From Streptomyces sp. ITFR-21 (lineage in GTDB: Bacteria; Actinomycetota; Actinomycetes; Streptomycetales; Streptomycetaceae): a stretch of 64,000 bases of DNA. A program made the translations under genes and the position numbers. The stretch covers positions 248,001 through 312,000 of the forward strand of contig NZ_CP134605.1 in NCBI RefSeq assembly GCF_031844685.1, given 5' to 3'. The notes below the pieces were generated by a model, which saw only the letters and a program-made list of their open reading frames with translations, was not told the DNA's origin and did not search any database. Shown here piece after piece: positions 17,354 through 36,392 of the stretch (positions are counted from its first letter, which is position 1; the number at the start of each line of letters is the position of its first letter).

Positions 17354-18327
17354 CACGCGGGCCCGTCCCGCTCTTCCCACCCCTCTTCCGGCGGCTCGGC
17401 CGGCCCGTCGTCCGGCGCGGCGGCCGGCGCGGGCAGCAGCCCGGCGGCAGCGGGCCGCGCACCGTGATCCTGGTGCCGTCCGGGTACTCGGACGTCACCG
17501 CCGGTCCGTGGCCCGGCCGGGTGCTGGGCCACTGCGCGAGCGCCGGGCCCTACGAGGCGACGCTGAAGCCGGAGTGGATCGCCGGCGTGATCCCCGTCGA
17601 ACGCCTCGCCCGTTCCGTCCCGCGGGTGGGGTGTGCCCGCCTCCATGGTCGCCCGCGCGCCCCGCCGGGCCGAGGGATCCAGCAGCAGCCATGCGTTGGG
17701 TGACCGCAGTCCCCCGCCTGCCGGCGAGTCCTCGACGGAGATTCTTACCCGCCTCAATGTCAGCCTGTCGTTTACCTGCCCGCTACCTGTCCGCCCTGTC
17801 GCAGGATGGCGGTCCTATGACGCCGCGTGGTCCGCTTCCAGCCGCGACGTGTTTCTTCTGGGGCCCGCCGACCGGCCGTCGACGGCGCCGGTGGCCGTGG
17901 GTTTCCGCGCGGCTCAGGGGGCCGCCCGGCCGATCGGCCCCGCGCTTGGCGCCCACAAGAAACGCCCCGCCGACCTGCGGGTGGGCGACGCGCCGCCGAC
18001 GCCCTGCCACCGGTCGGCAGCGGCGGCTCTGCCGGGTCGGGACGATCCGCCGCGCCGTGGCGTCGGCGCCGGGGCGCCGGAGATCCGGCCGGCCCGGCGG
18101 GAATTGCCGTCCGTGATGTGGCCGGGACACCGGCGTTGCGCCGCCGGTATTCCCACCCCGCCGTTCCGCCGCCGTTCCGCCGCCGGTTCGCGCTTTTCCG
18201 GTCGCGTACTCCCGGCGGTCTTTTCCGTTCAACAACGAGCGGACTCCGCTCCGTTCCGATCGGATACCGCGCGCGCCGCAGGGGACGCGGGAGGCTTTCG
18301 CGTGTGGCCCGGCGGGACACGCCGACG
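17354..18327. other. Poorly resolved region upstream of the BREX operon
   Basis: No family is recognised. The most protein-like frame is plus-strand 17464-17703 (GTG start, 79 codons), reading HCASAGPYEATLKPEWIAGV before it loses character; it could be a remnant of a larger gene. The rest is very GC-rich with several short Arg/Pro-rich frames. A region near 18110-18280 has lower coding character and no obvious promoters. Confidence 0.4.
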
Positions 18328-18502
18328 GGGGCCTGTCGTGCGGATCCGCGCGTGGATCCGCACGGGTCGGGGAGCGGGGTCCGGTGCGTCGCGGCTGCGC
18401 GGCTGAGGAGGGGGGCGGCGCGGTGCGTCGCCGACCGGCGGGAACGTGGCAGGCGTGCGGACCGGGGCCCGCGACGCCGCGGAGATCCACCCGACGGGCC
18501 CC
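18328..18502 (+). repeat. Inverted-repeat element, copy 1 (left of BREX)
   Basis: A 175-bp element whose ends are imperfect inverted repeats: GGGGCCTGTCGTGCGGATCC at the left and, read in complement, GGGGCCCGTCGGGTGGATCT at the right. Internal blocks such as GGCGGGAACGTGGCAGG and CGCGACGCCGCGGAGATCC recur in the copies at 29259-29421 and 34636-34851, all in the same orientation. It has no coding capacity. It lies 225 bp before the first BREX gene. Confidence 0.7.
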
Positions 18503-18690
18503 AGCCGCGGATGTGCCGACACCGGGACGGGGTTTGGCCGTCGGCGCCGGGCCGCCCCGCCAGCGGCAGCCGCACCTCGCCGCGCCGCACCGCGCCCGCA
18601 CCTCGCCCGCACCTCGCCCAGCCGGGAGCAGGCGGGTCCGCCCGGCCGCCGGTGCCGCCCCGGCTGCCGATGGCGGGGCGGGGCGGCCGG

Positions 18691-18696
18691 TAGGGT
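18691..18696 (+). promoter_or_regulatory. Putative -10 box of the BREX operon
   Basis: TAGGGT at 18691-18696 fits the Streptomyces -10 consensus and would place the start site about 25 bp before the brxA GTG. No good -35 is seen; the nearest candidate is CTGCCG at 18664-18669, with too long a spacer. Three copies of CGCACCTCGCC at 18571-18581, 18598-18608 and 18609-18619 lie upstream and could be regulator sites. Confidence 0.4.
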
Positions 18697-18727
18697 GGTG
18701 GCGGCAAAGGGATGGGCAGAGAACGAG

Positions 18728-19558
18728 GTGACCAGAGCGTTGGCGCGGTCCGACATCGTGGCTGGGGACCGGGCGGGCGGGGCCAACACCAGTCACACGA
18801 TTGCTCTTGAGCTGCTCGGCCGGCTGCTGGCCACCGTTCCGGGCGGCGCGAGCGCCGGGGACTACCACCGCGCGGCCGTGGACGACAACGTCCTGGGGAG
18901 GTCGACGCTGGAGGGGCGGCGGCGGGCGTTCCGGTACCTGCGGGAGCTGTACCTGCTGGACCCGTCGCGGCTGCTCTTCCGCGCGCTGCGCGACCTGTGG
19001 GACGAGGACCCGGCGGCCCGCCCGCTGCTGGCCGGGCTCGCCGCGCTCGCCCGCGACAGCGTGTTCCGGGCCAGCGCGGCGGCGGTGGTCCCGGCGCCGC
19101 CCGGCACCGTGGTGTCCTCCGCGGACCTGGCGCGGGCCGTCGCGGCCGCCTTCCCCGGCTCCTACAGCGGGGCGAGCGTGGCCAAAATCGGCCGCAACAC
19201 CGGCTCCTCCTGGACCCAGACGGGGCATCTGCGGGGCCGTACCGGCAAGACGCGGGTACGGGTGGAGGCCCGTCCGGCCGCCGCCGCCTTCGCGCTCCTG
19301 CTGGGGCATGTGCAGGGCGCCCGCGGCCAGGGGCTGTTCACCACCCGGTGGGCCGGCTTCCTCGACCGTGACGCCCACGAGCTGACGGCGCTGGTCGAGC
19401 GGGCGGGTCTCGACGGCTACCTGGAGAACCGGTCGGCCGGGGGCGTCGTCGAGATCGGCTTCCGGCACCTGCTCAGGCCGTTCGACCGTGAGGACGCCGA
19501 GGACGCCGAGGACCCCAAGGACGCCGAGAGCGCCGAGAGCGCCGGAGGGGCCGCATGA
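18728..19558 (+). CDS. brxA: BREX protein BrxA (DUF1819 family)
   Basis: A 276-residue protein matching BrxA/DUF1819 in layout and position. Seen are an N-terminal helical block with NTSHTIALELLGRLLATVPG, then LEGRRRAFRYLRELYLLDPS and a DNA-binding-like C-terminal half with GASVAKIGRNTGSSWTQTGH. BrxA is a small DNA-binding component needed in several BREX types. The C-terminal 25 residues are an acidic low-complexity tail made of EDA/ESA repeats. GTG 18728 is chosen because it lies just downstream of the promoter; upstream in-frame GTGs are possible. Its stop overlaps the brxB start by four bases (ATGA). Family assignment rests on the gene context as much as on sequence. Confidence 0.75.
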   Translation: MTRALARSDIVAGDRAGGANTSHTIALELLGRLLATVPGGASAGDYHRAAVDDNVLGRSTLEGRRRAFRYLRELYLLDPSRLLFRALRDLWDEDPAARPLLAGLAALARDSVFRASAAAVVPAPPGTVVSSADLARAVAAAFPGSYSGASVAKIGRNTGSSWTQTGHLRGRTGKTRVRVEARPAAAAFALLLGHVQGARGQGLFTTRWAGFLDRDAHELTALVERAGLDGYLENRSAGGVVEIGFRHLLRPFDREDAEDAEDPKDAESAESAGGAA

Positions 19559-20112
19559 CCGACATGGACGCCCTCGCGCGGGCGTACGCGCGCTTCGTCG
19601 CCCTGCCGTGGGCGGGCGACCTCGCGTACCCGCAGCGGGTCTGGACGGTCGTCTACCCGCCGCGCGACGAGCGGCGGCTGCGGGCCCGGCTGGCCGAGTT
19701 CGAGATCGCGACCACCAAGTCCGGGCACGGCTGGCGGCAGGTGGACGTCACCGACGCGTTCGCCGGCTGGCTCGGCCGCCACCCGTACCGTGACGCGTAC
19801 TTCGAGGAGCCCGAGCTGCTCTCCGGCGCCGCGCTGGAGGACTTCGACCGCTATGTCCAGGAGGCGGTCGTCGCCGCGCTCGAGGACCCCGCCGCCGACG
19901 AGAACACCGCGGTGGCGCTGGTCGGCGTGGGGTCGCTCTTCCCCTTCTCGAAGGTGAGCCGGGTGCTCGACGGGGTGGGCGGATCGGTTCGGGGGCGGCT
20001 GGTGGTCTTCTTCCCCGGTGAGCGCGACGGCTCCAACTACCGCCTGCTCGAAGCCCGGGACGGCTGGAACTACCTCGCCACACCCATCACCGACGCGAAG
20101 GACGCGCTGTGA
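19555..20112 (+). CDS. brxB: BREX protein BrxB (DUF1788 family)
   Basis: A 185-residue DUF1788 protein. The diagnostic C-terminal half reads ALVGVGSLFPFSKVSRVLDG followed by LVVFFPGE and then YRLLEARDGWNYLATPI, the signature of BrxB. Biochemical role is not settled; it is required for BREX defence and is thought to act with BrxC and PglZ. Start ATG 19555 lies inside the brxA stop and its own stop overlaps the brxC start, so translation is coupled along the operon. Confidence 0.88.
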   Translation: MTDMDALARAYARFVALPWAGDLAYPQRVWTVVYPPRDERRLRARLAEFEIATTKSGHGWRQVDVTDAFAGWLGRHPYRDAYFEEPELLSGAALEDFDRYVQEAVVAALEDPAADENTAVALVGVGSLFPFSKVSRVLDGVGGSVRGRLVVFFPGERDGSNYRLLEARDGWNYLATPITDAKDAL

Positions 20113-23100
20113 CGTTGAACCGGGAGCTGTTCGTAGAGGACCCGACCGACAAGGACATCCCGAACCTCGGTGTGTCGAAGGTCGGCCGGCCCGCCGACGC
20201 CAAGGAGTGGGAGGTCCTGCGCTACGAGCTGTCCAGCTTCGTGTGCGAGGGCGAGTACGAGAACGGCCTCGACCTCGTCCTGGGGACCTACCTGCGCCAC
20301 CTGGGGCAGGCGCAGCAGCCGGCGGTGTGGGTGAGCGGGTTCTACGGGAGCGGGAAGTCGCACCTGGCGCGCGTACTGGAGTTCCTGTGGCAGGACGTGC
20401 GGCTGCCGGACGGCGCGTCCACCCGGGAACTGGTGGACTTCACGCCCCGGATCGGGGAGTCGCTGCGCGAGCTGTCCACGGCGGCGGAGCGGGCCGGCGG
20501 GCTCTGGTCGGTGTCCGGGATGCTGGGATCGGGCGCCGGGGAGAGCGTCCGGCTGGCCTTCCTGTCGGTCCTGCTGCGCGGCGCCGGCCTGCCGGAGAAG
20601 CTCGCGCCGGCCCGGTGCGCGATCTGGCTGCACAAGGAGGGCATCCACGCCGCGGTACGGGAGTACGTCGAGCGGCACGGCGGCGACTTCCGGCAGGAGC
20701 TCCACAACCTCTACGTCGCGCGGCTGCTGCCGCTGGCGGTCCTCGACGCGCTGCCCGGATTCGCCGACAGCGCCGCGGAGGTGCGCAAGCAGCTGCGGGA
20801 GCAGTTCCCGGAGCGCGCGGACATCAGCGACGACGAGATGCTCACCGTCCTCGGCGACGTCCTCGGCCTGATGTCGACCCGTCCGGGCCGGATCCCGTGC
20901 ACGCTGGTCGTCCTCGACGAGATGCAGCAGTTCATCTCCGAGGATCCCGAGCGGGCCCTGGGTGTGCAGAACCTGGTCGAGCTGTGCTCGGCGAAGTTCC
21001 AGAGCCGGCTGCTGATCGTGGCCACCGGCCAGTCCGCCCTCCAGGCCACGGCCACCCTGCAGAAGCTCACCGACCGGTTCAGCGTCCAGATCCAGCTGTC
21101 CAACACCGATGTGGACAGCGTCATCCGCAAGGTCGCGCTGCGCAAGCGCGCGGACCGGATCGGTGAGCTGGAGAGCACCCTGGGCCGGGTGTCGGGGGAG
21201 ATCGACCGGCAGCTGAGCGGATCGCGGATCGCGGCGGCCCCCGGTGACGGCCCGGACCTGGTGCCGGACTACCCGCTGCTGCCCTCGCGCCGCCGGTTCT
21301 GGGAACAGGTGCTGCGCGCGGTGGACAAGGGCGGCAAGGCGGGCCAGCTCCGCACCCAGCTGCGGGCGGTGCACGAGGCCAACCGCCATGTCGCGCGGTC
21401 GGCCGTCGGCACCGTCGTGCCCGCCGACTTCATATACGGACAGCAGTCGTCCGGGATGCTGCAGAGCCGGGTCCTCCTGCGGGAGGTCGAGGAACTCATC
21501 CAGAACGAGAGGAAGCAGGGGCCGGACGGCGAGCTGCGCTCCCGTGTCCTCGCGCTGGTCTTCCTGATCGCCCAGCTCTCCCGCGAGGGCTTCACCGACA
21601 CCGGGGTCCGGGCGACCGCCGAACACATCGCGGACCTGCTCGTCGACGATCTCACCGGCGCCGGCGACCGGCTGCGCCGCGACGTACCGCGGCTGCTGGA
21701 GGAGCTGCGGGCCGAGTCCAAGCTCCAGCGGGTCGACGACGAGTACCGGCTCCAGACCCGGGCCGGCCAGGAGTGGACCAGGGACTTCCAGGCGCGCCTG
21801 TACGCCTTCCTCAGCGACGCGGGCCGCGTGGCCGCGGCCCGCGACAAGGAGTTGCGGGACGCCGTGGGGCGGCTGGTCCAGCGCGGCACGACGCAGGGCG
21901 TGAGCAGGACGCAGCGGACGGTGTCCGCGCATTTCGGCGACACCGCGCCCGCCGTCGGGGCCGACGTACCGGTCTGGGTGCGTGACGGCTGGGACGTCAC
22001 CGGCAAGCAGTTCACCGACGAGGCGACCGGGGCTGGCCAGGACTCCCCGCTGGTCTTCGTGCACCTGCCCAAGCACGAGCCCGACGCGCTGCGCCAGGCG
22101 CTCGGCGAGCTGCGCTCCGCGCAGGAGACCCTCGACGCCAGGGCGCGTCCCACGACGGACGAGGGGCTCGCCGCCCAGCGGGCCATGCAGTCCACCCGCG
22201 ACAGCGCGCGCGAGCGGGTGGACGCGCTGGTCGGCGAGGTCGTACGAGGCGGGTTCGTCGTGCAGGCGGGCGGCAACCGGGTGGCGGGAAGCGACCTGAG
22301 GAACGCGCTGGCCGCCGCCACCGAGCGGGCCCTGGACCGGATGTACCCCAAATTCGGCGACGGCGACCACACCGGCTGGGGCACGGTGGTCAGCCGGGCG
22401 CAGCAGGGCAACACCGACGCGCTGGCCGCGGTCGGCTACAGCGGCGACGCGGCCGGGCACCCGGTGTGCAAGGCGGTACGGGACGCGGTGCCGGGGACCG
22501 GCGCCACCGGCCTCGAACTGCGCCGGCGCTTCGAGTCCTCGCCGTACGGGTGGCCGCGCGACGCCGTGCACGGCGCGCTGCTGGTGCTGCTGCTGGCCGG
22601 GGAGATCACCGCCGAGGACAGCGGTACCCCGGTGACCGCCCGCGACATCACCCCGACGAGGATCGGGAAGCTCTCCTTCCGTCGCGAGGGCGCGTCGCTC
22701 GCGCTTCCGCAGCGGCTCGGTGTGCGGCAGGTCCTCACCCGCGCAGAGGTCCCGTTCCGGAACAACGAGGAGGCGGCCGGCTGCGCCGCGCTCCTGGACC
22801 GGCTCGGCGAGCTCGCGCAGGCGGCGGGCGGATCGGCCCCGCTGCCGCCGGTGCCGTCCGCCGACTCCGTCCGCGAGCTGCGGACCCGCCGGGGCAACGA
22901 CCTGGTCGTCGGGGTCTTCGAGCGGCGGGAGGCGCTGCTCGCCGAGATCGAGGAGTGGACCAGGCGGGCGAGCCTGCGGCAGCCGCGGCTGGACGCCTTC
23001 CGGCAGGCGCGGAGTTTGGCGGCCCACGCGCGGGACCTGCCGGCGGCGGCTTCGGTGGTCGGCCGGCTGGAGGCGGTGTCGGCGGGGCGGCTGCTCCTGG

Positions 23101-23561
23101 ACCGGGTGGACCCGGTCGGGCCCGTCGTGCAGGAGCTGACCGCTCTTCTGCGCGCGGAGGTCGGGTCCCGGGCCGAACGCCACGACACGGCCCTGCGCGA
23201 GGCGCTCGACGAGCTCGGCGCCGACGAGACGTGGCGCGCGGCCGGCGCCGACCAGCAGCAGGCCGTCCTGGCCGGGACCGGCCTGGTGCCGGTCGCCGCC
23301 GCCGACCTGAGCGGGCCCGCGGCGGTGCTCGCCGCTCTGGACCGCGAGTCGCTGTCGTCCTGGGAGAACCGCATCGTCTCGGTGCGGGTCCGCCTGCAGC
23401 AGGCACGGGAGAAGGCGGCACGGCTCGCCGAGCCCACGGCCTTCCGGATCGACCCGCCGCCCGCGACGCTGCGCTCCACCGAGGACGTGGACCGGTACGT
23501 CGAGCGGCTGCGGGCCGTGCTCACCGCCGCGCTGGACGAGCACGGCTCGCTCATTCTCTGA
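20109..23561 (+). CDS. brxC: BREX P-loop ATPase BrxC
   Basis: A 1150-residue AAA-like ATPase of the BrxC/PglY group. Walker A is GFYGSGKSH at residues 77-85 and Walker B is LVVLDEMQQF near residue 265. The N-terminus (MTLNRELFVEDPTDKDIPNL) is typical of BrxC, where the DPxxxxIP segment is conserved. The large C-terminal part is helical and includes a DUF6079-like region. BrxC is the motor-like core subunit and works with PglX and PglZ to recognise and block incoming phage DNA. The size is normal for BrxC (about 1150-1250). A 4-bp overlap joins it to brxB, and pglX starts nine bases after its stop. It could be called PglY in type 2 nomenclature, but brxA and brxB make the BrxC name fit better. 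Confidence 0.92.
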   Translation: MTLNRELFVEDPTDKDIPNLGVSKVGRPADAKEWEVLRYELSSFVCEGEYENGLDLVLGTYLRHLGQAQQPAVWVSGFYGSGKSHLARVLEFLWQDVRLPDGASTRELVDFTPRIGESLRELSTAAERAGGLWSVSGMLGSGAGESVRLAFLSVLLRGAGLPEKLAPARCAIWLHKEGIHAAVREYVERHGGDFRQELHNLYVARLLPLAVLDALPGFADSAAEVRKQLREQFPERADISDDEMLTVLGDVLGLMSTRPGRIPCTLVVLDEMQQFISEDPERALGVQNLVELCSAKFQSRLLIVATGQSALQATATLQKLTDRFSVQIQLSNTDVDSVIRKVALRKRADRIGELESTLGRVSGEIDRQLSGSRIAAAPGDGPDLVPDYPLLPSRRRFWEQVLRAVDKGGKAGQLRTQLRAVHEANRHVARSAVGTVVPADFIYGQQSSGMLQSRVLLREVEELIQNERKQGPDGELRSRVLALVFLIAQLSREGFTDTGVRATAEHIADLLVDDLTGAGDRLRRDVPRLLEELRAESKLQRVDDEYRLQTRAGQEWTRDFQARLYAFLSDAGRVAAARDKELRDAVGRLVQRGTTQGVSRTQRTVSAHFGDTAPAVGADVPVWVRDGWDVTGKQFTDEATGAGQDSPLVFVHLPKHEPDALRQALGELRSAQETLDARARPTTDEGLAAQRAMQSTRDSARERVDALVGEVVRGGFVVQAGGNRVAGSDLRNALAAATERALDRMYPKFGDGDHTGWGTVVSRAQQGNTDALAAVGYSGDAAGHPVCKAVRDAVPGTGATGLELRRRFESSPYGWPRDAVHGALLVLLLAGEITAEDSGTPVTARDITPTRIGKLSFRREGASLALPQRLGVRQVLTRAEVPFRNNEEAAGCAALLDRLGELAQAAGGSAPLPPVPSADSVRELRTRRGNDLVVGVFERREALLAEIEEWTRRASLRQPRLDAFRQARSLAAHARDLPAAASVVGRLEAVSAGRLLLDRVDPVGPVVQELTALLRAEVGSRAERHDTALREALDELGADETWRAAGADQQQAVLAGTGLVPVAAADLSGPAAVLAALDRESLSSWENRIVSVRVRLQQAREKAARLAEPTAFRIDPPPATLRSTEDVDRYVERLRAVLTAALDEHGSLIL

Positions 23562-23570
23562 GGGGAACCC

Positions 23571-26500
23571 ATGGCAGTCCTGACACCGGTGATGCGCACC
23601 GACCTGGAACGGGTGGTGCAGCGCGGCCGCGCTGCGGCGGAGGCGTCCGCGGCCTCGGCCGTCACCCGGCTGGGCGTGGGAACCGACCGGGTGCCGGCCT
23701 ATCTCTCGCCGCGGGAGCGGGCGCTGCGGCGGGCCCTGCGTGCCAGGGCCCGGCAGCTGGGCGACCGGCTGGAGCACGCGGACGGCCCCGGCGAGGACGC
23801 GTACCGGATGCTGGTGCGGGAGGTGGCCTACGAGCAGTGGCACCGCCTGCTGTTCGCGCGCTTCCTGGAGGCGAACGGCCTGCTGCGGCACCCCGACTAC
23901 GGCATCCCGCTGACGCTGGCGGAGTGCGAGGAGCTGGCGGCCGAGCTGGACGAGCCCGACGGCTGGTCGGTGGCGGCGCGGTTCGCCGCCGAGGTGCTGC
24001 CGGGGATATTCAAACCGGGCGACCCGTGCGTCCAGGTGCCGATCGCGCGGGAGGACCTGCTCGCGCTGGAGCGGGCGGTCGCGGACGTGCCGGCCGGGAC
24101 GCTGACCGCGCAGGACGCGCTGGGCTGGGTCTACCAGTTCTGGCAGTCGCGGTCGAAGGCCGAGGTGAACGACTCCGGCCGGAAGGTCGGCGGGGCCGAC
24201 CTGCCGCCGGTGACGCAGCTGTTCACCGAGCACTACATGGTCCGGTTCCTGCTGGAGAACTCGCTCGGCGCGTGGTGGGCCGAGCGGCACCCGGCGTCCC
24301 GGCTCGTCGAGGAGTACGACTACCTGCGGCGCGACGCCGACGGCGGGCCCGCCGTGCGCCGGTTCGAGGACTGGCCGCGGCGGGTCGCCGAGGTCACCGT
24401 CATGGACCCGTGCTGCGGTTCGGGGCACTTCCTGGTCGCGGCGTTCGGCATGCTGTGGCGGATGCGCGCCGAGGAGGAGGGGCTGGCGCCGGCGGCGGCC
24501 CAGGACGCGGTGCTGCGGGAGAACCTCTTCGGGCTGGAACTGGACGCGCGCTGTACGCAGATCGCCATGTTCGCGCTGGCCCTGGAGGCATGGAAGGAGG
24601 GCGGCTACCGCCCGCTGCCGGTGCCGAACGTCGCCTGTTCCGGCATCCCGGCCAAGGCGCCGCTGGCCGAATGGATCAAGCTCGCCGACGGGGACGGCCG
24701 GATCGAGGCCGCGCTGGGCCGGCTGCACGCCCTGTTCGCGGACGCCGACACCCTCGGGTCGCTGATCGACCCGGTCGCGGGCGGGCACACCGGGCAGCTG
24801 GACGAGGTCGACTGGCACCGGCTGGCCCCGCTGCTGGACCGGGCGCTGCACGCCGAGGCCGGGGTGTCGGGCGACCCGGCGAGCGAGGTGTTCGGTGACG
24901 CCGCCGCCGGGATCGGCCGGGCCGCCGACCTGCTGTCGCGCCGCTACGACCTGGTGGCGACCAACGTGCCCTACCTGGGGTCCGGGCTGCAGAGCGAGCT
25001 GCTCACCCGCTACCTGGGCGAGTACCTCCCGGACGCCTCGGCCGACCTCGCCACGGCCATGGTCCGGCGGTGGCAGCGCTCACTGCGCGGGTCCGGCATC
25101 GTCGCCGTGGTGACGCCGCAGAACTGGCTGTTCCTCAACTCCTACCGCGCGTTCCGCGCGGCCCAGCTGCGCGGTCACCAGTTCCACCTGCTGGGGCGGC
25201 TCGGCCCGGGGGCCTTCTCGGCCGTCAGGGGCGAGGTGGTCAAGGCGCTGCTGGCCGTCCTGCAGCGCGGTGGCGAACCGCTGGGGCGGCGGATGCGGAT
25301 GATCGACGCGTCCGGGCCGTCCCAGCCCCTCGACAAGGCTGAAGCGCTGCGGACCCTCCCCGCCTGGGACGTGCTCCAGTCCGAGCAGTACGCCAACGAG
25401 GCGTCGGTGATCGCCTTCGGCGAGGGCGGCGCCGGTGACCCGCTGGCGCTGCGGGCCCGCAGCTTCCAGGGCCTCAAGACCGGGGACAACGCCAGGTTCG
25501 TCCGCAAGCACTGGGAGATCCCGTCCATCGGCTCCGGCTGGACCCGGATCCAGTCCGCCCCGCGCCGCACCGCGCTGTACGACGGCTGCGACTGCGTGCT
25601 GAAGTGGGACTCCGGTACCGGGAAGCTGGCCAGGTCCCCGCAGGCCCGCGTCCAGGGCCAGGGCGCCTGGGGGCGCAAGGGGGTGCTCATCTCGGAGATG
25701 AGCGCGACGCCGTGCACCGTGTTCACCGGCGAGGTGTTCGACAGCAGCGCCGCGGCGGTGATCCCGCGCGACGAGACCCTGCTGCCGGCGCTGTGGCACT
25801 ACATGGCGGACGACTCCTACCGGACCGAGCTGCGGCGGATCGACCCCAAGCTGAGCGTCGCGACCGCGAGCTTCACCCGGGTGCCCTTCGACGTCGAGCA
25901 CTGGCGGCAGGTCGCGGCGCGGTCGGGGCCGCTGCCCGAACCGGCGTCGGACGATCCCACGCAGTGGCTGTTCTCCGGGGCGCCCGCCGAGGCGACCGCG
26001 GTGCTCCAGGTGGCGGTGGCCCGGCTGCTGGGATTCCGCTGGCCGGGCCAGCGGCCGGACCCGCTGGACGAGCTGACGGACGCCCACGGAATCGTCTGCC
26101 TGCCCCCGGTGGCCGGCGCGCCGGCCGCAGCCGACCGGGTCCGGGAGCTCCTCGCCGCGGCTTACGGCGACCAGTGGTCGGCGCCCGTCGTGGACAAGCT
26201 GCTGGCCCAGGCGGGCAGGCCGTCGGGGGACCTGGCGGGCTGGCTGCGGGACGCCTTCTTCAAGGACCACTGCAAGGTCTTCCACAACCGCCCGTTCATC
26301 TGGCACGTCTGGGACGGCCTCAAGGACGGGTTCTCCGCGCTGGTGAACTACCACCGGCTGGACCGGGCCACGCTGGAGCGGCTGACGTACACCGTCCTGG
26401 GGTGGTGGATCGACCGGCAGCGGGCCGACGCGGACGCGGACCTGGCCGGCGCCGGGTCGCGGCTGGCCGCGGCGCAGGAGTTGCAGCGCGCTCTGGTCGG

Positions 26501-26768
26501 GATCCTTGAGGGCGAGCCGCCGCTGGACATCCACGTGCGCTGGAAGCCGCTGTCCGGCCAGCCGATGGGGTGGGAGCCGGACCTGGACGACGGTGTACGG
26601 CTGAACATCCGGCCGTTCGTCGCGGCGGGCGTGCTGCGGTCGAAATTCACCATTCACTGGAAGAAGGACCGCGGCACCGAACCGGACGGCTCCGCGCGCG
26701 ACAACGACCTGCACCACACCCTCGCGCAGAAGCGTGCCGCGCGGGAGACCGGAGGCCGGACCCCGTGA
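23571..26768 (+). CDS. pglX: BREX adenine-specific DNA methyltransferase PglX
   Basis: A 1065-residue Eco57I-like N6-adenine methyltransferase. The SAM-binding motif is VMDPCCGSGHFLVAAFGML at about residue 277. The catalytic motif IV is NVPY at about residue 463 (LVATNVPYLGSG), in place of the common NPPY; the same variant occurs in some relatives, so activity is not excluded. A target-recognition region follows (residues about 600-850). PglX marks the host's own DNA at a short asymmetric site and is needed for defence. It starts with ATG 23571 after GAGGGGA, and its stop overlaps the pglZ GTG (GTGA). No frameshift or truncation is seen. Confidence 0.93.
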   Translation: MAVLTPVMRTDLERVVQRGRAAAEASAASAVTRLGVGTDRVPAYLSPRERALRRALRARARQLGDRLEHADGPGEDAYRMLVREVAYEQWHRLLFARFLEANGLLRHPDYGIPLTLAECEELAAELDEPDGWSVAARFAAEVLPGIFKPGDPCVQVPIAREDLLALERAVADVPAGTLTAQDALGWVYQFWQSRSKAEVNDSGRKVGGADLPPVTQLFTEHYMVRFLLENSLGAWWAERHPASRLVEEYDYLRRDADGGPAVRRFEDWPRRVAEVTVMDPCCGSGHFLVAAFGMLWRMRAEEEGLAPAAAQDAVLRENLFGLELDARCTQIAMFALALEAWKEGGYRPLPVPNVACSGIPAKAPLAEWIKLADGDGRIEAALGRLHALFADADTLGSLIDPVAGGHTGQLDEVDWHRLAPLLDRALHAEAGVSGDPASEVFGDAAAGIGRAADLLSRRYDLVATNVPYLGSGLQSELLTRYLGEYLPDASADLATAMVRRWQRSLRGSGIVAVVTPQNWLFLNSYRAFRAAQLRGHQFHLLGRLGPGAFSAVRGEVVKALLAVLQRGGEPLGRRMRMIDASGPSQPLDKAEALRTLPAWDVLQSEQYANEASVIAFGEGGAGDPLALRARSFQGLKTGDNARFVRKHWEIPSIGSGWTRIQSAPRRTALYDGCDCVLKWDSGTGKLARSPQARVQGQGAWGRKGVLISEMSATPCTVFTGEVFDSSAAAVIPRDETLLPALWHYMADDSYRTELRRIDPKLSVATASFTRVPFDVEHWRQVAARSGPLPEPASDDPTQWLFSGAPAEATAVLQVAVARLLGFRWPGQRPDPLDELTDAHGIVCLPPVAGAPAAADRVRELLAAAYGDQWSAPVVDKLLAQAGRPSGDLAGWLRDAFFKDHCKVFHNRPFIWHVWDGLKDGFSALVNYHRLDRATLERLTYTVLGWWIDRQRADADADLAGAGSRLAAAQELQRALVGILEGEPPLDIHVRWKPLSGQPMGWEPDLDDGVRLNIRPFVAAGVLRSKFTIHWKKDRGTEPDGSARDNDLHHTLAQKRAARETGGRTP

Positions 26769-29065
26769 CGGCACCGACCGTTCTCGACGCGCTCGCGGAC
26801 TGCGTCCGCGCCGCCGCCGGACGCTACAACCGCGACGACAAAGCGGCGCCGGCCGCGGTGCTGTGGGCGGACCCCGGCGGCGCGTGGCGCCCGCTGATCC
26901 CCGCTCTGGGCGCGCGGCTGCCGCTGGCGACGCTCGGCGCGTACGACCCCGGTACGCGCACCGGTCCGGCGATCTGGCTGCGGTGCCTGCTGGGCGGGGC
27001 TTTCGACGGGCCGCCGCCGGCCGGCCCCTGGGTGGTCTACCTGCCCGGGGTGGAGCAGTCGCAGCTGCGGGCCGTCGAGTCGGCGCCGGGGCACCTGCGC
27101 CCCATCGCCGAGCTGCAGTTCCGAGCGGCCTGGTGGCAGCAGCCGAACGGGGGCGCGTGGACCCCGGCGTCGTTCCTGAGGAGCCAGGACGGACTCGGCC
27201 TCAAGCTGGCCCGGGACACCGCGACGCACGACGCGCTCGGGCACGCGCTGACCGTCCTCGCGGGCGCCTCGGTGGACGACCTGCGCCGCAGGAGCCGGAT
27301 CGACGCGGACGACCTGGCGGCCCTGCTGAACCCCGACGAGGTCAAGACCCTCCTCGACTGGCTCGACGACCCGCGCGGCACCCGGGACCGGCTCGGCGGG
27401 AACGCCTGGACGGCCTTTGTGACGCAGTGCCGGCGCACCTTCCGCGTCAGCCCGGACGGCGACGGGCCGCTCGCTGTCGCGCGGCGGCTCGGCCTGCGCG
27501 AGGGAGCGCAGTGGCAGCGGACCTGGCAGCGGTTCGCCGAGGCGCCGCACGCGTACCCGCGAATCCCCGAACTGCTGCGGCAGGCCCGCCCGGACCAGCT
27601 GTTCGTCAGCAGCCGGGACTCCTGGCCGCAGGACGACGAGAGCGCCGAGGAGGAGCTGGCCGCGTCGCTGGGGGCGCTGGCGGGGGCGACCGGTGAGGAG
27701 GCGCGGACGGCCCTGGCCCGGCTCGACGAGGAGCACGGCCGGCGGCGGGCATCGGTGTGGAGCGGTCTCGGGCTCAGCCCCCTCGCGTCCGCCGTCGGCC
27801 ACCTGAACCGGCTGGCCGGGCTGACCGGCCGGCTGCCGGCGGGCGGGTCCGTCGCGGACTTCGCGGCCTGGTACGCGGAGCACGGCTGGCAGGCCGACGA
27901 GGCGGCCGTGTCGGCGCTGGCCGCCGTGCCGGCGCCCGCCGCGCGGGACGCGGTCGGCGCGGCGCTGCGCTCGGTGTACCTGCCGTGGCTGGACGAGACG
28001 GCCCGCCGCTTCCAGGCCGCGGCGGTCGGCGGCGGCTACCCCGGGGAGATCGGCCTGCGGACCGCGCCGGGCGAGTGCGTGGTCTTCGTCGACGGTCTCC
28101 GCTACGACGTCGGCACCATGCTGCGGGACCGGCTGCGGCTCCGCGGTCTCGGCGCGGAGATCCGGCCCAGGCTGGCCCCGTTTCCCACGGTCACCGGAAC
28201 CGGCAAGCCGGCCGTGGCCCCCGTCGAGCTGCCCCGCGCGGGCGGCCCGGAGATGACGGCGCTGGGGCCGCAGGGCAGGCGGCTGGCCGGGGACGCGCTG
28301 CGGGCGGCGCTGCGGGCCGGCGGCGTCCAGCCGCTCGGGCCGGAGCAGACCGGCGGCGATCCGTCCGGCCGGGGCTGGACCGAGGCGGCCGACCTGGACC
28401 GGACGGGCCACGGGCTGGGCCTGAAACTGGTCGACCGGATCGGGCAGGAGGTCGAGGACATCGCGGCCAGGGTCCAGGAGCTGCTGCACGCCGGGTGGAC
28501 ACGGGTGTCCGTGGTCACCGACCACGGCTGGCTGCTCGTGCCGGGCGGACTGCCCAAGGTCGACCTGCCGGAGCACCTCACCGCGGTCCGCAAGCCCCGG
28601 GCCGCCCGCCTGGCCGCCTCCGCCCACGGCGTCGGCCAGCCGACCGTGCCGTGGAGCTGGGACGCCTCCGTCGCGATGGCCTCACCGCACGGGGTCGCCG
28701 CCTTCGAGGCGGGCCGGATCTACGACCACGGCGGGCTGAGCCCGCAGGAGTGCGTCGTACCGGTGCTCGTCGTCACCCCCGGCGGCGCCGCCGCTTCCCG
28801 CGGCCGGATCGGGCAGGTCGCGTGGAGCGGGACGCGCTGCCGGGTGGACGTGGCGGACGTCGGGACCGGCAGCCGGGTGGAGGTCAGGCGGCGCCCCGCC
28901 GATCCGGCGTCCCGCCTGGCCGGCCCGCAGTCCGTGGCGGGAGCGGAAGGCGAGGTCGAGCTCCTGGTGGCGGACGGGGTGTACGGGGGAAGCGAGGCGT
29001 ATGTCGTTCTGCTCTCCGCCGACGGGGAGATCCTGGCGCAGGCCGCGACCCGGGTGGGCGGGTGA
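26765..29065 (+). CDS. pglZ: BREX phosphatase-domain protein PglZ
   Basis: A 766-residue PglZ protein. The alkaline-phosphatase-superfamily core appears as VVFVDGLRYDVGTMLRDRLR near residue 439 and VSVVTDHGWLLVPGGLPK near residue 585, carrying the metal-binding Asp and Asp-His pairs. A Gly-Gly-Leu-Ser segment (YDHGGLSPQECVVPVLVV) closes the domain, as in PglZ. N-terminal residues 1-400 are helical. PglZ proteins are phosphodiesterases essential for BREX; the partner is usually BrxB. GTG 26765 overlaps the pglX stop. Nothing that looks like brxL, brxHI, brxHII or brxD follows: the next 190 bp are non-coding, then comes a repeat element and an unrelated gene on the other strand. Confidence 0.92.
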   Translation: MTAPTVLDALADCVRAAAGRYNRDDKAAPAAVLWADPGGAWRPLIPALGARLPLATLGAYDPGTRTGPAIWLRCLLGGAFDGPPPAGPWVVYLPGVEQSQLRAVESAPGHLRPIAELQFRAAWWQQPNGGAWTPASFLRSQDGLGLKLARDTATHDALGHALTVLAGASVDDLRRRSRIDADDLAALLNPDEVKTLLDWLDDPRGTRDRLGGNAWTAFVTQCRRTFRVSPDGDGPLAVARRLGLREGAQWQRTWQRFAEAPHAYPRIPELLRQARPDQLFVSSRDSWPQDDESAEEELAASLGALAGATGEEARTALARLDEEHGRRRASVWSGLGLSPLASAVGHLNRLAGLTGRLPAGGSVADFAAWYAEHGWQADEAAVSALAAVPAPAARDAVGAALRSVYLPWLDETARRFQAAAVGGGYPGEIGLRTAPGECVVFVDGLRYDVGTMLRDRLRLRGLGAEIRPRLAPFPTVTGTGKPAVAPVELPRAGGPEMTALGPQGRRLAGDALRAALRAGGVQPLGPEQTGGDPSGRGWTEAADLDRTGHGLGLKLVDRIGQEVEDIAARVQELLHAGWTRVSVVTDHGWLLVPGGLPKVDLPEHLTAVRKPRAARLAASAHGVGQPTVPWSWDASVAMASPHGVAAFEAGRIYDHGGLSPQECVVPVLVVTPGGAAASRGRIGQVAWSGTRCRVDVADVGTGSRVEVRRRPADPASRLAGPQSVAGAEGEVELLVADGVYGGSEAYVVLLSADGEILAQAATRVGG

Positions 29066-29258
29066 GCCGGGAGTGAGCCGGACGGACGGGCCCGGCCGAC
29101 GGCGGACGCGGACGGGCGAAGCCGGCGGTCGGGGTCCGCTCGCCGGAGGAGCTCGTCGCGGCGGAGACCAGCCGGACCGGGCGTCCGCCGTGTCCCCGGC
29201 GGTGCGCCCGACCCGTCGGCCGGGGGCCCACCCGGGCGCCGACCGCCACGGCACGGCC

Positions 29259-29421
29259 AGGACCTGTCGTTCGGATCTGCGCGGGTGGCGGGGCGGGTCC
29301 GGTGCGCGGCGGCGGCAGGGCCGAGGTGGCGGGCGACGTGGTGCGGTGTCGGCCGGCGGGAACGCGGCAGGCCGTGCGGGCCGGGGTCCGCGACGCCGCG
29401 GAGATCCGGGCGACAGGCCCT
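29259..29421 (+). repeat. Inverted-repeat element, copy 2 (right of BREX)
   Basis: A 163-bp copy with the cleanest ends: AGGACCTGTCGTTCGGATCT on the left and, in complement, AGGGCCTGTCGCCCGGATCT on the right. Internal blocks match copy 1 in the same orientation. Its right end is flush with, and supplies, the TAG stop codon of the convergent PPOX gene. The 193 bp between pglZ and this element show no gene. Confidence 0.72.
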
Positions 29422-29899
29422 AGGAGGGGCCGGTCAGGCGGATGCCGGAGACCAGGTCGGGGTGGAGGCGGACGAGGACGTCGGTCCGCTGGTCCGCCCA
29501 GGGGCGCACCAGCTCGCGGTAGCGGGCGGTGTCCCGCGGGTCGGTGATCAGGCGGCAGTAGCCGGTGACCACCACGCTCCACCCGAGGTGGGTGTCGGCG
29601 TCGATCACGTCGGCCTCGTAGGCGACGACGATGCCCTGCGCGCCGACCCGCTCGACCTGCTCGGTCAGGGCGGCGGCCTCGTGGGTGTGGATGATGACGT
29701 CGCCCGCGACGACGACGTGGTTGACGGGGCGGATGGCGGGCAGCGCGTGCCGGGTGAAGACGATCCGGCCCAGCGAGACGCCCGCCAGCAGCCGCAGCGC
29801 CTCCGCGGGGTCCAGATCGACCGTGCGCCGGGGTCCCGGGGCCACGGCGGGACTCCCCCACCGGGTCCGGACGGCGTGCCGCACTCCTTCGTCGCTCAT
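29420..29899 (-). CDS. Pyridoxamine 5'-phosphate oxidase-family (FMN-binding split barrel) protein
   Basis: A 159-residue split-barrel protein. The family pattern is visible as LLAGVSLGRIVFTRHALPAI followed by PVNHVVVAGDVIIHTH and GWSVVVTGYCRLI. Such proteins bind FMN, F420 or haem; the reaction of this one is unknown. ATG 29899 is preferred, with GGAAGAG upstream; the longer frame to the right is Arg/Pro-rich noise. Streptomyces genes of this type often belong to a hypoxia/dormancy (DevR-like) regulon, and a matching palindrome is present at 30024-30039. The stop codon lies within the end of the inverted-repeat element. Confidence 0.85.
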   Translation of the reverse strand: MSDEGVRHAVRTRWGSPAVAPGPRRTVDLDPAEALRLLAGVSLGRIVFTRHALPAIRPVNHVVVAGDVIIHTHEAAALTEQVERVGAQGIVVAYEADVIDADTHLGWSVVVTGYCRLITDPRDTARYRELVRPWADQRTDVLVRLHPDLVSGIRLTGPS

Positions 29900-34324: not shown

Positions 34325-34635
34325 CCCGCCGTCCCTCCCCTGCGCCTGCTCGGAGCGGCGCGCCGGCCGGCGTCCTCCCGGCCGACCCGACCCGGCCGGG
34401 GGGGCGGCTGTTCCTCCGTCACCACCGGACGTGCCTGCGCTCCGAAGCACGGTGACCGTCTTGCCCGGTTGCCGGGCGGCAAACAGGGACGGTCGGCGGG
34501 GGCCGCGGCGGGGGCGGGATCCGGCCGCCCGGCGTCCGGACGGCGGGACGGAGGTGAAGCGGAGGCGAGGCGGAGGGCCTCGTCGCGGCGGGCCGGGCGG
34601 CGACCGGCGGGCCGGCGGCCCGGCCGACCCGTGCC

Positions 34636-34851
34636 GGGGTCCGGCGTTCGGATCTCCGTGGGTGGCGGGGCGGGATCCGGTGCGTGCGGCCGCCCGGCGG
34701 AGTGGGGGAGCGACGCGGTGCGGGTGCCTCCCCACTCCGCCGGGCCGGGGAGGCCGTCGCCGGCCGGCCGGAACGCGGCAGACGGGTGTGCCGGAGCCCG
34801 CGACACCGCACCAATCCGCACGGATCCGCACGGATCCGCACGGCAGACCCT
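34636..34851 (+). repeat. Inverted-repeat element, copy 3
   Basis: A 216-bp relative of the elements flanking the BREX operon, in the same orientation. The left end reads GGGGTCCGGCGTTCGGATCT and the right end, in complement, AGGGTCTGCCGTGCGGATCC. It contains an extra inner inverted repeat, GCCCGGCGGAGTGGGG and its complement, and a threefold ATCCGCACGG tandem near its right end. As in copy 2, the right end is flush with a TAG stop codon, here of the GAF-ANTAR gene. Confidence 0.65.
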
Positions 34852-35596
34852 ACGGGCGGGCTCCCCTGGCCGCGGCCGACAGGATGTGCTCCGGGGTGAG
34901 CGCGCGGCTCAGCAGCGCCTGGGCGGCGGACGTGGGCCGTACGCCGCCCTGCCGGCTGTAGGCGTGCAGCGCGCCCAGGGCGTCGGCGAGCGACAGGCCG
35001 CCGGCGGCGGCCAGCATGCCCTGGGCCGTCTCCACCGACGCCTTGGCCGCGACCACCGACTGGACCCGGGTGAGGATGTCCTGGGGTCGCGCCGGATCGG
35101 ACCGCCACTGCATCATCGCGGTCGCGGTGACCTCGGCGAACGCCCTCGCCACGTCGAGGTCGTCGTCGGTGAGCGGTACGGCGCCGGCGCACAGCAGGTT
35201 GAGCGCGCCCACCACCTGCCCGTGGATCCGCACCGGAATGCCGTACGCGCCGACGAACCCCGCCGCCCGTGCCAGCACCGTGAAACGCGGCCACCGGTCG
35301 GCGGACAGCGCCAGGTCGGGGGCGGCCACCACCTGCCCGTCCCGCCGGCAGTCGACGCACGGGCCCTCGCCGGTCTGCAGCTGGAGCATCTCCAGGAGTT
35401 CGGCGCGCTGGTCGGACACAGCGACGGTGCGCAGCCGGCCGCGGGCGGTGACCATCATGATCCCGGCCGCGGTGGCGCCGGTGAGCCGGACGCAGTGGGC
35501 GACGAGCCGGTCCGCCAGGACGAGCGGGTCGACCTGCTCACCGAAGGTGTCGGCAAGGCTGACGAACGCCTCCGCCACGTGTCGCAGACGGCTCAT
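34850..35596 (-). CDS. GAF and ANTAR domain protein
   Basis: A 248-residue cytoplasmic sensor-regulator. The GAF domain covers about residues 10-160 (LVAHCVRLTGATAAGIMMVT, GEGPCVDCRRDGQVVAAPDL) and the ANTAR domain about 180-240 (VVAAKASVETAQGMLAAAGG, LGALHAYSRQGGVRPTSAAQ). The CVDC pair in the GAF loop is common in this family and could sense redox state. ATG 35596 is preferred because GGTGAG lies six bases before it; an upstream ATG at 35647 overlaps the stop of the neighbouring GAF-ANTAR gene and would couple the two. Its stop codon lies at the edge of repeat copy 3. Confidence 0.83.
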   Translation of the reverse strand: MSRLRHVAEAFVSLADTFGEQVDPLVLADRLVAHCVRLTGATAAGIMMVTARGRLRTVAVSDQRAELLEMLQLQTGEGPCVDCRRDGQVVAAPDLALSADRWPRFTVLARAAGFVGAYGIPVRIHGQVVGALNLLCAGAVPLTDDDLDVARAFAEVTATAMMQWRSDPARPQDILTRVQSVVAAKASVETAQGMLAAAGGLSLADALGALHAYSRQGGVRPTSAAQALLSRALTPEHILSAAARGARP

Positions 35597-35639
35597 GCCG
35601 AACTCACCGTTCCTGTCATCGGCCCCTGCCCGTACGGGC

Positions 35640-36392
35640 CTACTCATCGAAGCTCAGCTTGAGTGCGATCACGTCGCGTGCGACCTCGGTCACCGTTCGG
35701 CCCTGTGCGAAAGCGTACGCGCGGAGCCGGGCCAGCGCGTGGTGCGGATCGACCCCCAGCTGAACCATGAGCATGCCGGTCGCGTAGTGCACCTCTTCGT
35801 GGTCGCTCTCGGCGCCCTCCAGCCAGGAGGCCAGTTCCTCCTCGTCGGATCCGGCCTGCGCGGCGGCGTCGGAGTGGATCCTGATCAGGGCGAACGTGAT
35901 GGCGTCGGCCGCGGGGAAGGCGAACGCCTTGTCCCGGGCGCTGAGCGGCCCCTGCTCGCGCCGGTAGAGGTCCAGCGTGCCGGTGGCCACCGCCGCGCTG
36001 CCCAGCGGCAGGGAGAACACCGCCCGCACCCCCAGCTCCACCGCGCGCTGGGCGAACAGCGGCCAGCGCCGGGCGTCCACGCCCTGGGCGAGGTCGCCGG
36101 CCAGTACCGGGGCGACCAGGCCCAGCGCGCTCTGGCACGGCCCGTCGCCGAGGGTGTACTGCACCTCCGCCAGTTCGGCGGCCACCGGGTCGCTGGACCA
36201 CCACAGGGTCCGCAGCCCGGGGCCGCCGGAGAGCGAGACAGACGCACCGGTGACGTCGAGGAGGTCGACGCACGCCTGGCAGAGCCGGGCGGGGACCGAA
36301 CGCACGTCGGGCGCGGCGATCGCCTCGGCCAGCGCCCGGTTGAACAGGGTGCGGTCGGCGGCGGCTCCGGCGGCATCCGACGGCGACTTCAC
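35640..36392 (-). CDS. GAF and ANTAR domain protein
   Basis: A 250-residue relative of its downstream neighbour. The GAF domain runs from about residue 20 to 165 (LCQACVDLLDVTGASVSLSG, GDGPCQSALGLVAPVLAGDL). The ANTAR domain follows (HEEVHYATGMLMVQLGVDPH, RLRAYAFAQGRTVTEVARDV). GTG 36392 is chosen because AAGGAG lies five bases upstream; ATG 36473 would add 27 weakly conserved residues. It probably forms a two-gene operon with 34850-35596. Two linked GAF-ANTAR genes plus two ANTAR genes within 6 kb is a notable concentration of RNA-level regulators. Confidence 0.83.
   Translation of the reverse strand: MKSPSDAAGAAADRTLFNRALAEAIAAPDVRSVPARLCQACVDLLDVTGASVSLSGGPGLRTLWWSSDPVAAELAEVQYTLGDGPCQSALGLVAPVLAGDLAQGVDARRWPLFAQRAVELGVRAVFSLPLGSAAVATGTLDLYRREQGPLSARDKAFAFPAADAITFALIRIHSDAAAQAGSDEEELASWLEGAESDHEEVHYATGMLMVQLGVDPHHALARLRAYAFAQGRTVTEVARDVIALKLSFDE

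Follow-up and report, generated by a model that had tools for sequence, protein, structure and literature searches.

Type 1 bacteriophage exclusion (BREX) systems have been dissected by gene deletion in Escherichia coli HS, Acinetobacter sp. NEB394 and Salmonella D23580, and the laboratory brxL deletions of these three systems have the same gene content as an operon found in Streptomyces sp. ITFR-21, within a stretch of 64,000 nucleotides (contig NZ_CP134605.1, positions 248,001 to 312,000 of the forward strand; hereafter the window). According to the parts of the published reports consulted here, host methylation needs brxB, brxC, pglX and pglZ in E. coli, Acinetobacter and Salmonella (PMC6326788, PMC9122589, PMC11341690), and brxA is also needed in Acinetobacter and Salmonella (PMC9122589, PMC11341690). 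The sixth gene, brxL, was found to be dispensable for methylation in E. coli, where 17 of 18 phage sites were still modified and the effect was marginal (PMC6326788), and for host methylation in Acinetobacter (PMC9122589) and Salmonella (PMC11341690). Its part in defence varies: brxL is needed in E. coli (PMC6326788) and Acinetobacter (PMC9122589), whereas the Salmonella D23580 system defends without it, and better so against some phages (PMC11341690). In Escherichia fergusonii, the nuclease activity of PglZ is carried by residues T538 and H741, and active-site mutants retain part of the defence (PMC12205998), so that PglZ may not be the only nuclease. Unlike the three laboratory deletions, the Streptomyces operon is natural and resides in an actinomycete host; its PglZ is of type B.

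The operon belongs to the PglZ type B lineage, keeps the gene order of that lineage, has no brxL and retains its conserved sites; as a whole, the locus is best explained, with good confidence, as a type 1-lineage BREX operon that lost brxL and whose other five genes look intact. Its features are the following.

18728-19558, plus strand: brxA, 276 aa with an inferred GTG start (PADLOC BrxA, 244 bits).
19555-20112, plus strand: brxB, 185 aa (PADLOC BrxB, 219 bits; Pfam BrxB, 34.3 bits against a cut-off of 26.8).
20109-23561, plus strand: brxC, 1150 aa, with the Walker A motif GFYGSGKSH (PADLOC, 1227 bits; NCBIfam NF033441, 704 bits against a cut-off of 400).
23571-26768, plus strand: pglX, adenine methyltransferase, 1065 aa, with the motifs DPCCGSGHF and NVPY (PADLOC, 1248 bits).
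26765-29065, plus strand: pglZ type B, 766 aa (NCBIfam NF033450, 756 bits against a cut-off of 400; PADLOC PglZ, 783 bits).
29066-29253, no strand assigned: the stretch where the brxL of relatives begins, in which BrxL searches recognised no brxL remnant.

The original prediction, made from the letters alone, described five intact and coupled genes joined by 4-bp overlaps or a 9-bp gap. The junctions were reproduced (in order, a 4-bp overlap, a 4-bp overlap, a 9-bp gap and a 4-bp overlap) and all five proteins were recognised by PADLOC. No further open reading frame (ORF) was recognised inside the operon, seven flanking ORFs of the window, the ones that were scanned, gave no PADLOC match at 1e-5, and Rfam found nothing at gathering score between 17500 and 35000. 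At the 3' end of brxA (19484-19537), 9-bp tandem repeats encode an acidic tail (DREDAEDAEDPKDAESAES), and alignments to two relatives stop short of this tail.

Conservation was assessed at columns that are the same in at least 97% of relatives, among relatives of at least 90% query coverage (78% for BrxA, for which one relative was left at the higher value) and in a locus set that does not include L013 and L019. The window departs from these columns at no position in BrxA (28 relatives), BrxB (35) and PglZ (87), at one in BrxC (41) and at three in PglX (51); the median departures of the other members are 0, 0, 0, 1 and 2, respectively. The comparison covered 17 conserved columns in BrxB and 56 in PglZ. 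In the same way, the Walker A motif of BrxC is that of 32 of the 42 aligned rows, the remaining 10 having GFFGSGKSH. The usual form of the PglX motif is NPPY and NVPY is uncommon, but NVPY was present in 42 of 52 aligned rows and is thus normal in this lineage. Finally, PglZ retains TVT and HGG motifs, taken as equivalents of T538 and H741 of the E. fergusonii protein. Altogether, the five proteins look intact as judged from their sequences.

The type of the system was assigned mainly through PglZ. NCBIfam names it "BREX-1 system phosphatase PglZ type B" (NF033450, scores listed above) and it is nested among type-B proteins in the tree, while the NCBIfam PglZ type 5 and type 6 models score far under their cut-offs. 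This type-B model has a single match in the organism's own genome, in which all 9 candidates were scored. Other models are less decisive: the Pfam PglZ domain reaches 20.1 bits in PglZ, below its cut-off of 25; PglX reaches 342 bits on the NCBIfam BREX-1 PglX model, below the cut-off of 500, its best PADLOC PglX model being the one listed above; and BrxA and BrxB are without an NCBIfam match at E 0.001. The exact gene lists of BREX types 5 and 6 used for comparison are general background. Both types add helicases, and type 6 also has BrxE, as given in the consulted parts of a survey (PMC12839542), whereas the operon of the window has no helicase; neither BrxHI nor BrxHII was found at the locus, and the 10 matches of the BrxHI/BrxHII model (PDLC02504) in the genome all lie away from the operon and its surroundings. 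Under a strict six-gene definition of type 1 the operon fails on brxL; by descent it is type 1, of the PglZ type B lineage.

The same five-gene order and PglZ subfamily were found on the plasmids of Deinococcus sp. NW-56 and QL22 and in Agromyces fucosus and Phytoactinopolyspora endophytica, and in the last two the gene spacing is as compact as in the window. Unlike the window, all of them carry brxL right behind pglZ, and the Deinococcus plasmid loci have additional genes between pglX and pglZ. In these plasmid loci (L012, L016), DarT-like and other genes occupy that position, which is possibly a slot for extra effectors.

The presence of brxL was then recorded across the lineage. The relatives are 80 loci from species-representative genomes, namely the best 80 of 536 confirmed candidates obtained with an alignment of eight type-B PglZ as query, and a partial BrxL match was counted as presence. 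A BrxL match lies 3' of pglZ on the same strand in 78 of the 80; its closest piece is at most 143 bp away in 76 of them, and 1.3 kb (L107) and 3.1 kb (L100) away in the other two. In the two relatives without a match (L056 and L099), the contig ends 125 and 102 bp past pglZ. The best BrxL piece is shorter than 600 residues in 14 of the 78, owing to contig ends, splits or a different C-terminus; eight of these (L075 and seven others) are at or near a contig end or split. In four relatives (L066, L076, L104 and L117), the BrxL match ends near residue 475-500 despite ample contig, which suggests a different C-terminal domain. An HKD nuclease variant of BrxL has been described (in the consulted parts of PMC12839542), and the C-terminal domain of these four is perhaps that variant.

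In parallel, three class-level genomes besides the organism's own were above the family cut-off (G514, G731 and G585), and all three have brxL; G585 (loci L006 and L050) is apparently the same entry as L076, and the two were counted once. In a plasmid collection, a type-B PglZ was present in eight records, all from outside the actinomycetes; in seven of them brxL directly follows pglZ, five being so annotated. No relative was found among the viral contigs searched. The PglZ tree (88 rows), built by a quick method and with the letter composition of the window flagged as unusual, places the window inside a clade of 12 actinomycete rows (Shimodaira-Hasegawa-like approximate likelihood ratio test support of 98), and brxL is present in all 11 others. 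The lineage is rare around the host: with the own genome included each time, one of 35 genus genomes, one of 394 family genomes and four of 394 class genomes were above the cut-off, with at most two candidates scored per genome in the family and class samples, and the search of the 34 congeners gave no type-B PglZ. Of note, another BREX is present in one genome of the family (L193, G084:C1:228500-248000); its PglZ is only a weak match to the type-B model (72 bits), and a BrxL adjoins it (1134 bits).

Searches for brxL itself were negative at several scales. In the 64-kb window, three plasmid BrxLs gave a best E of 0.11 and 17 BrxLs from relatives gave nothing at E 0.05, which bears out the absence of brxL beside the operon noted in the original prediction. 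A 375-base stretch 3' of pglZ was considered as a possible relic, and its best match (E 0.011 over 48 residues) was judged to be chance. PF13337 (BrxL) had no match in the 7.36-Mb genome of 4 contigs, while two of 14 control genomes were positive. The best genome match of one BrxL protein (E 0.006) proved to be an ordinary Lon protease, and a second, weaker match (E 0.008) falls on an ORF (L135) that fits no family.

As brxL is kept by nearly all sampled members of the lineage and by all 11 clade mates, the locus looks like one that lost brxL rather than a natural five-gene type, and the simplest reading of these sequences is a loss in the lineage of the window. The original prediction had proposed a minimal or degenerate BREX. 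The word degenerate agrees with an operon one gene short of its lineage; a minimal BREX as a type was rejected, given brxL in 78 of 80 relatives (the remaining two stopping at contig ends), in seven of eight plasmid loci and in three of three class genomes. The prediction had also named brxL or a helicase gene in the operon of all close relatives as a finding that would count against it: brxL is near-universal in the 80, but the nearest PglZ among them is only 47% identical and no close relative is known.

Several points nevertheless weigh against a plain loss. According to a survey of thousands of taxa (PMC12839542), only 76% of type 1 systems carry BrxL, which the consulted parts regard as not indispensable, so that a type 1 operon without brxL belongs to a documented minority; these same parts do not describe the lineage of the window. 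Since the relatives are the best 80 of 536 candidates, a sister group without brxL could have been missed. Another type-B locus with brxA, brxB, brxC and pglX was also found without brxL, in Aeromonas caviae (L019, NZ_AP026896.1). Its pglZ match ends at residue 665 and is thus truncated, and BrxL was matched neither in its 32 kb (best E 0.26) nor in the 15 kb after pglZ; a 424-aa ORF follows pglZ, with a second copy 7 kb further, and its resemblance to an insertion sequence suggests insertion-sequence damage of this locus. Type-B loci without brxL therefore do occur, there with a damaged pglZ. Moreover, intact genes may only mean that brxL was lost recently: with the closest PglZ at 47%, intactness cannot tell how long the five genes went without brxL. 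A surface-level literature search on BREX lacking brxL in Streptomyces, BREX with miniature inverted-repeat transposable elements (MITEs), orphan or incomplete type I BREX and PglZ type B returned nothing on this case.

With brxL loss taken as the preferred reading, a history and a function can be proposed. The operon was probably gained horizontally by this high-GC actinomycete, and brxL would have been lost from its usual place right behind pglZ. The five remaining proteins are predicted to form a BREX modification complex, in which PglX would read an asymmetric site and methylate adenine, its activity presumably requiring BrxA, BrxB, BrxC and PglZ. Because the window holds exactly the gene set required for methylation in the published deletions, continued methylation of the host is predicted. 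Residual restriction of unmodified phage, if any, would rest on the metal-dependent nuclease of PglZ and not on the DNA translocase BrxL.

Whether the operon does anything beyond methylation divides the two best-surviving alternatives. A complex limited to methylation, that is, an orphan-like modification system that would mark the host and not attack phage, is a real if tentative possibility. It is consistent with the retention of the very genes needed for methylation in Acinetobacter and Salmonella (PMC9122589, PMC11341690, in the parts consulted), but PglZ keeps its nuclease motifs. A stable five-gene BREX that restricts phage without BrxL, with PglZ as the nuclease and in the manner of the Salmonella brxL deletion, is rather doubtful. 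The conserved sites kept in all five proteins speak for it, as do the defence of the Salmonella system without brxL (PMC11341690) and the nuclease activity of PglZ (PMC12205998). On the contrary, all 78 relatives with enough downstream sequence, among the best 80 of 536, keep brxL; defence in E. coli and Acinetobacter needs it (PMC6326788, PMC9122589); PglZ mutants of E. fergusonii were still partly defended (PMC12205998); and the sole other type-B locus seen without brxL has a truncated pglZ. That selection has kept a natural BREX without brxL working, as a five-protein methylation complex that either restricts through PglZ alone or has abandoned restriction and acts as an epigenetic mark, is likewise somewhat unlikely.

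The surroundings of the operon raise the question of mobility, as two copies of one repeat flank it.

18325-18518, plus strand: upstream copy of a dispersed MITE-like palindromic repeat (nhmmer E 1.2e-44, the copy itself being in the profile), probably not belonging to the system.
29254-29433, plus strand: downstream copy of the same repeat (nhmmer E 4.2e-37, the copy itself being in the profile), likewise probably not belonging to the system.

Alignment and profile confirmed two copies in the same orientation, lying about 225 bp ahead of brxA and 193 bp past pglZ, as originally described; pairwise, 18377-18504 matches 29295-29423 with 81% and 86% identity over 78 and 51 bp. Beyond the original prediction, the window has a third copy (34629-34823), and dozens of others are spread over the genome. 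The element measures about 150-180 bp and has inverted ends, often CTAGGG.CTGTCG ... CGACAG.CCCTAG; short, with inverted ends and many dispersed copies, it is MITE-like. At least 40 long matches to the upstream copy, all with E below 1e-30 and both flanking copies included, were found in the own genome (best 40 of 334 candidates). With the profile, genome samples totalling 780 kb (one of the 40 sampled stretches having been dropped for overlapping the window) yielded 8 copies that score 50 bits or more, and a randomised and a reversed control yielded none; by extrapolation this gives about 75 copies per genome (Poisson range 33-149), or about one per 98 kb. The family also extends to the genus: the congeners G004, G019, G026, G012, G011 and G033 have matches of 75-78% along most of its length, and 34 of 35 genus genomes have matches at E 0.001, weaker in most.

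Movement of the operon as one unit with these repeats as its ends, which the original prediction inferred as a possibility, is improbable, and so is a deletion of brxL by recombination between copies. The two copies share their orientation and lie nearer to the operon ends than the density would suggest for one named operon, and the downstream copy sits where brxL is missing. However, the family is dispersed and both copies have closer kin elsewhere. By pairwise score, 29 of 31 other copies, in a sample picked for likeness to the upstream copy, are closer to it than its partner is, and for the downstream copy the corresponding number is 11 of 31, so that the flanking partner ranks 30th of 31 from the upstream copy and 12th of 31 from the downstream copy; with BLAST, 33 copies are closer to the upstream and 10 to the downstream copy than the partner. 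The family is also present in congeners where type-B BREX was not found, and direct-copy spacings of at most 20 kb are not rare (7 of 41 gaps among 42 listed copies, two of the seven in the window). As the family is dispersed and each flanking copy has closer kin elsewhere, movement as a unit is without support. It is not formally refuted: no empty site was found in the 35 genus genomes, because the eight stretches compared showed no synteny. The downstream pyridoxamine-oxidase-like gene reaches at best 60% in the genus (G031), and 19 of the 35 genus genomes, the own included, have matches to the upstream luciferase-like gene; a comparison of 29 ORFs at E 1e-15, in eight stretches around such matches, turned up no further genuine gene of the window. 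Most likely, the two flanking copies were inserted separately, as members of an abundant MITE-like family. That a copy lies within about 225 bp of each operon end is unlikely by density alone but is taken as a coincidence noticed afterwards; as the downstream copy lies where brxL is missing, the repeat may have had a role in the deletion.

Two further observations concern single copies. The upstream copy holds a palindrome, GTGCGGATCC-N6-GGATCCGCAC, at 18338-18363, with about 12 extra bases there relative to other copies in one alignment. The third copy sits downstream of a GAF-ANTAR gene (34850-35647, minus strand).

That brxL is missing from the assembly only is less probable still: a repeat lies just past the junction and repeats may collapse assemblies, but the contig measures 6.87 Mb in a 4-contig genome that is 99.75% complete, and the element is short.

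Least probable of all is an operon that relies on a BrxL or BrxH partner encoded elsewhere, as the original prediction had allowed, since the BrxHI/BrxHII model does match two large helicases strongly, at 2.80 and 2.97 Mb, but is positive in all 14 controls, the two score best as HmaA (635 bits in PADLOC) and DISARM DrmD (1298 bits in PADLOC, 1241 in NCBIfam), and BrxL was not found in the genome. The other BrxHI/BrxHII matches are weaker helicases, and a 53-position BrxH model had no match anywhere, control genomes included, and is hence uninformative; the searches for a partner covered BrxL and BrxH, and not BrxD and BrxE. The HmaA-like helicase (about 2.795 Mb, L194) and the DISARM DrmD helicase (about 2.966 Mb, L195) lie about 170 kb apart in the same genome, which therefore encodes parts of other defence systems.

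The repeats at this locus illustrate that, when elements flank a defence operon, their copies should be counted across the whole genome before mobility ends are called. As for the family, the role of BrxL as the BREX effector is disputed, since defence depends on it in E. coli and Acinetobacter but not in Salmonella. Nearly all sampled members of the lineage to which the operon of Streptomyces sp. ITFR-21 belongs have kept brxL, and a natural operon without brxL and with five intact genes offers a ready test of what the BREX core does alone.

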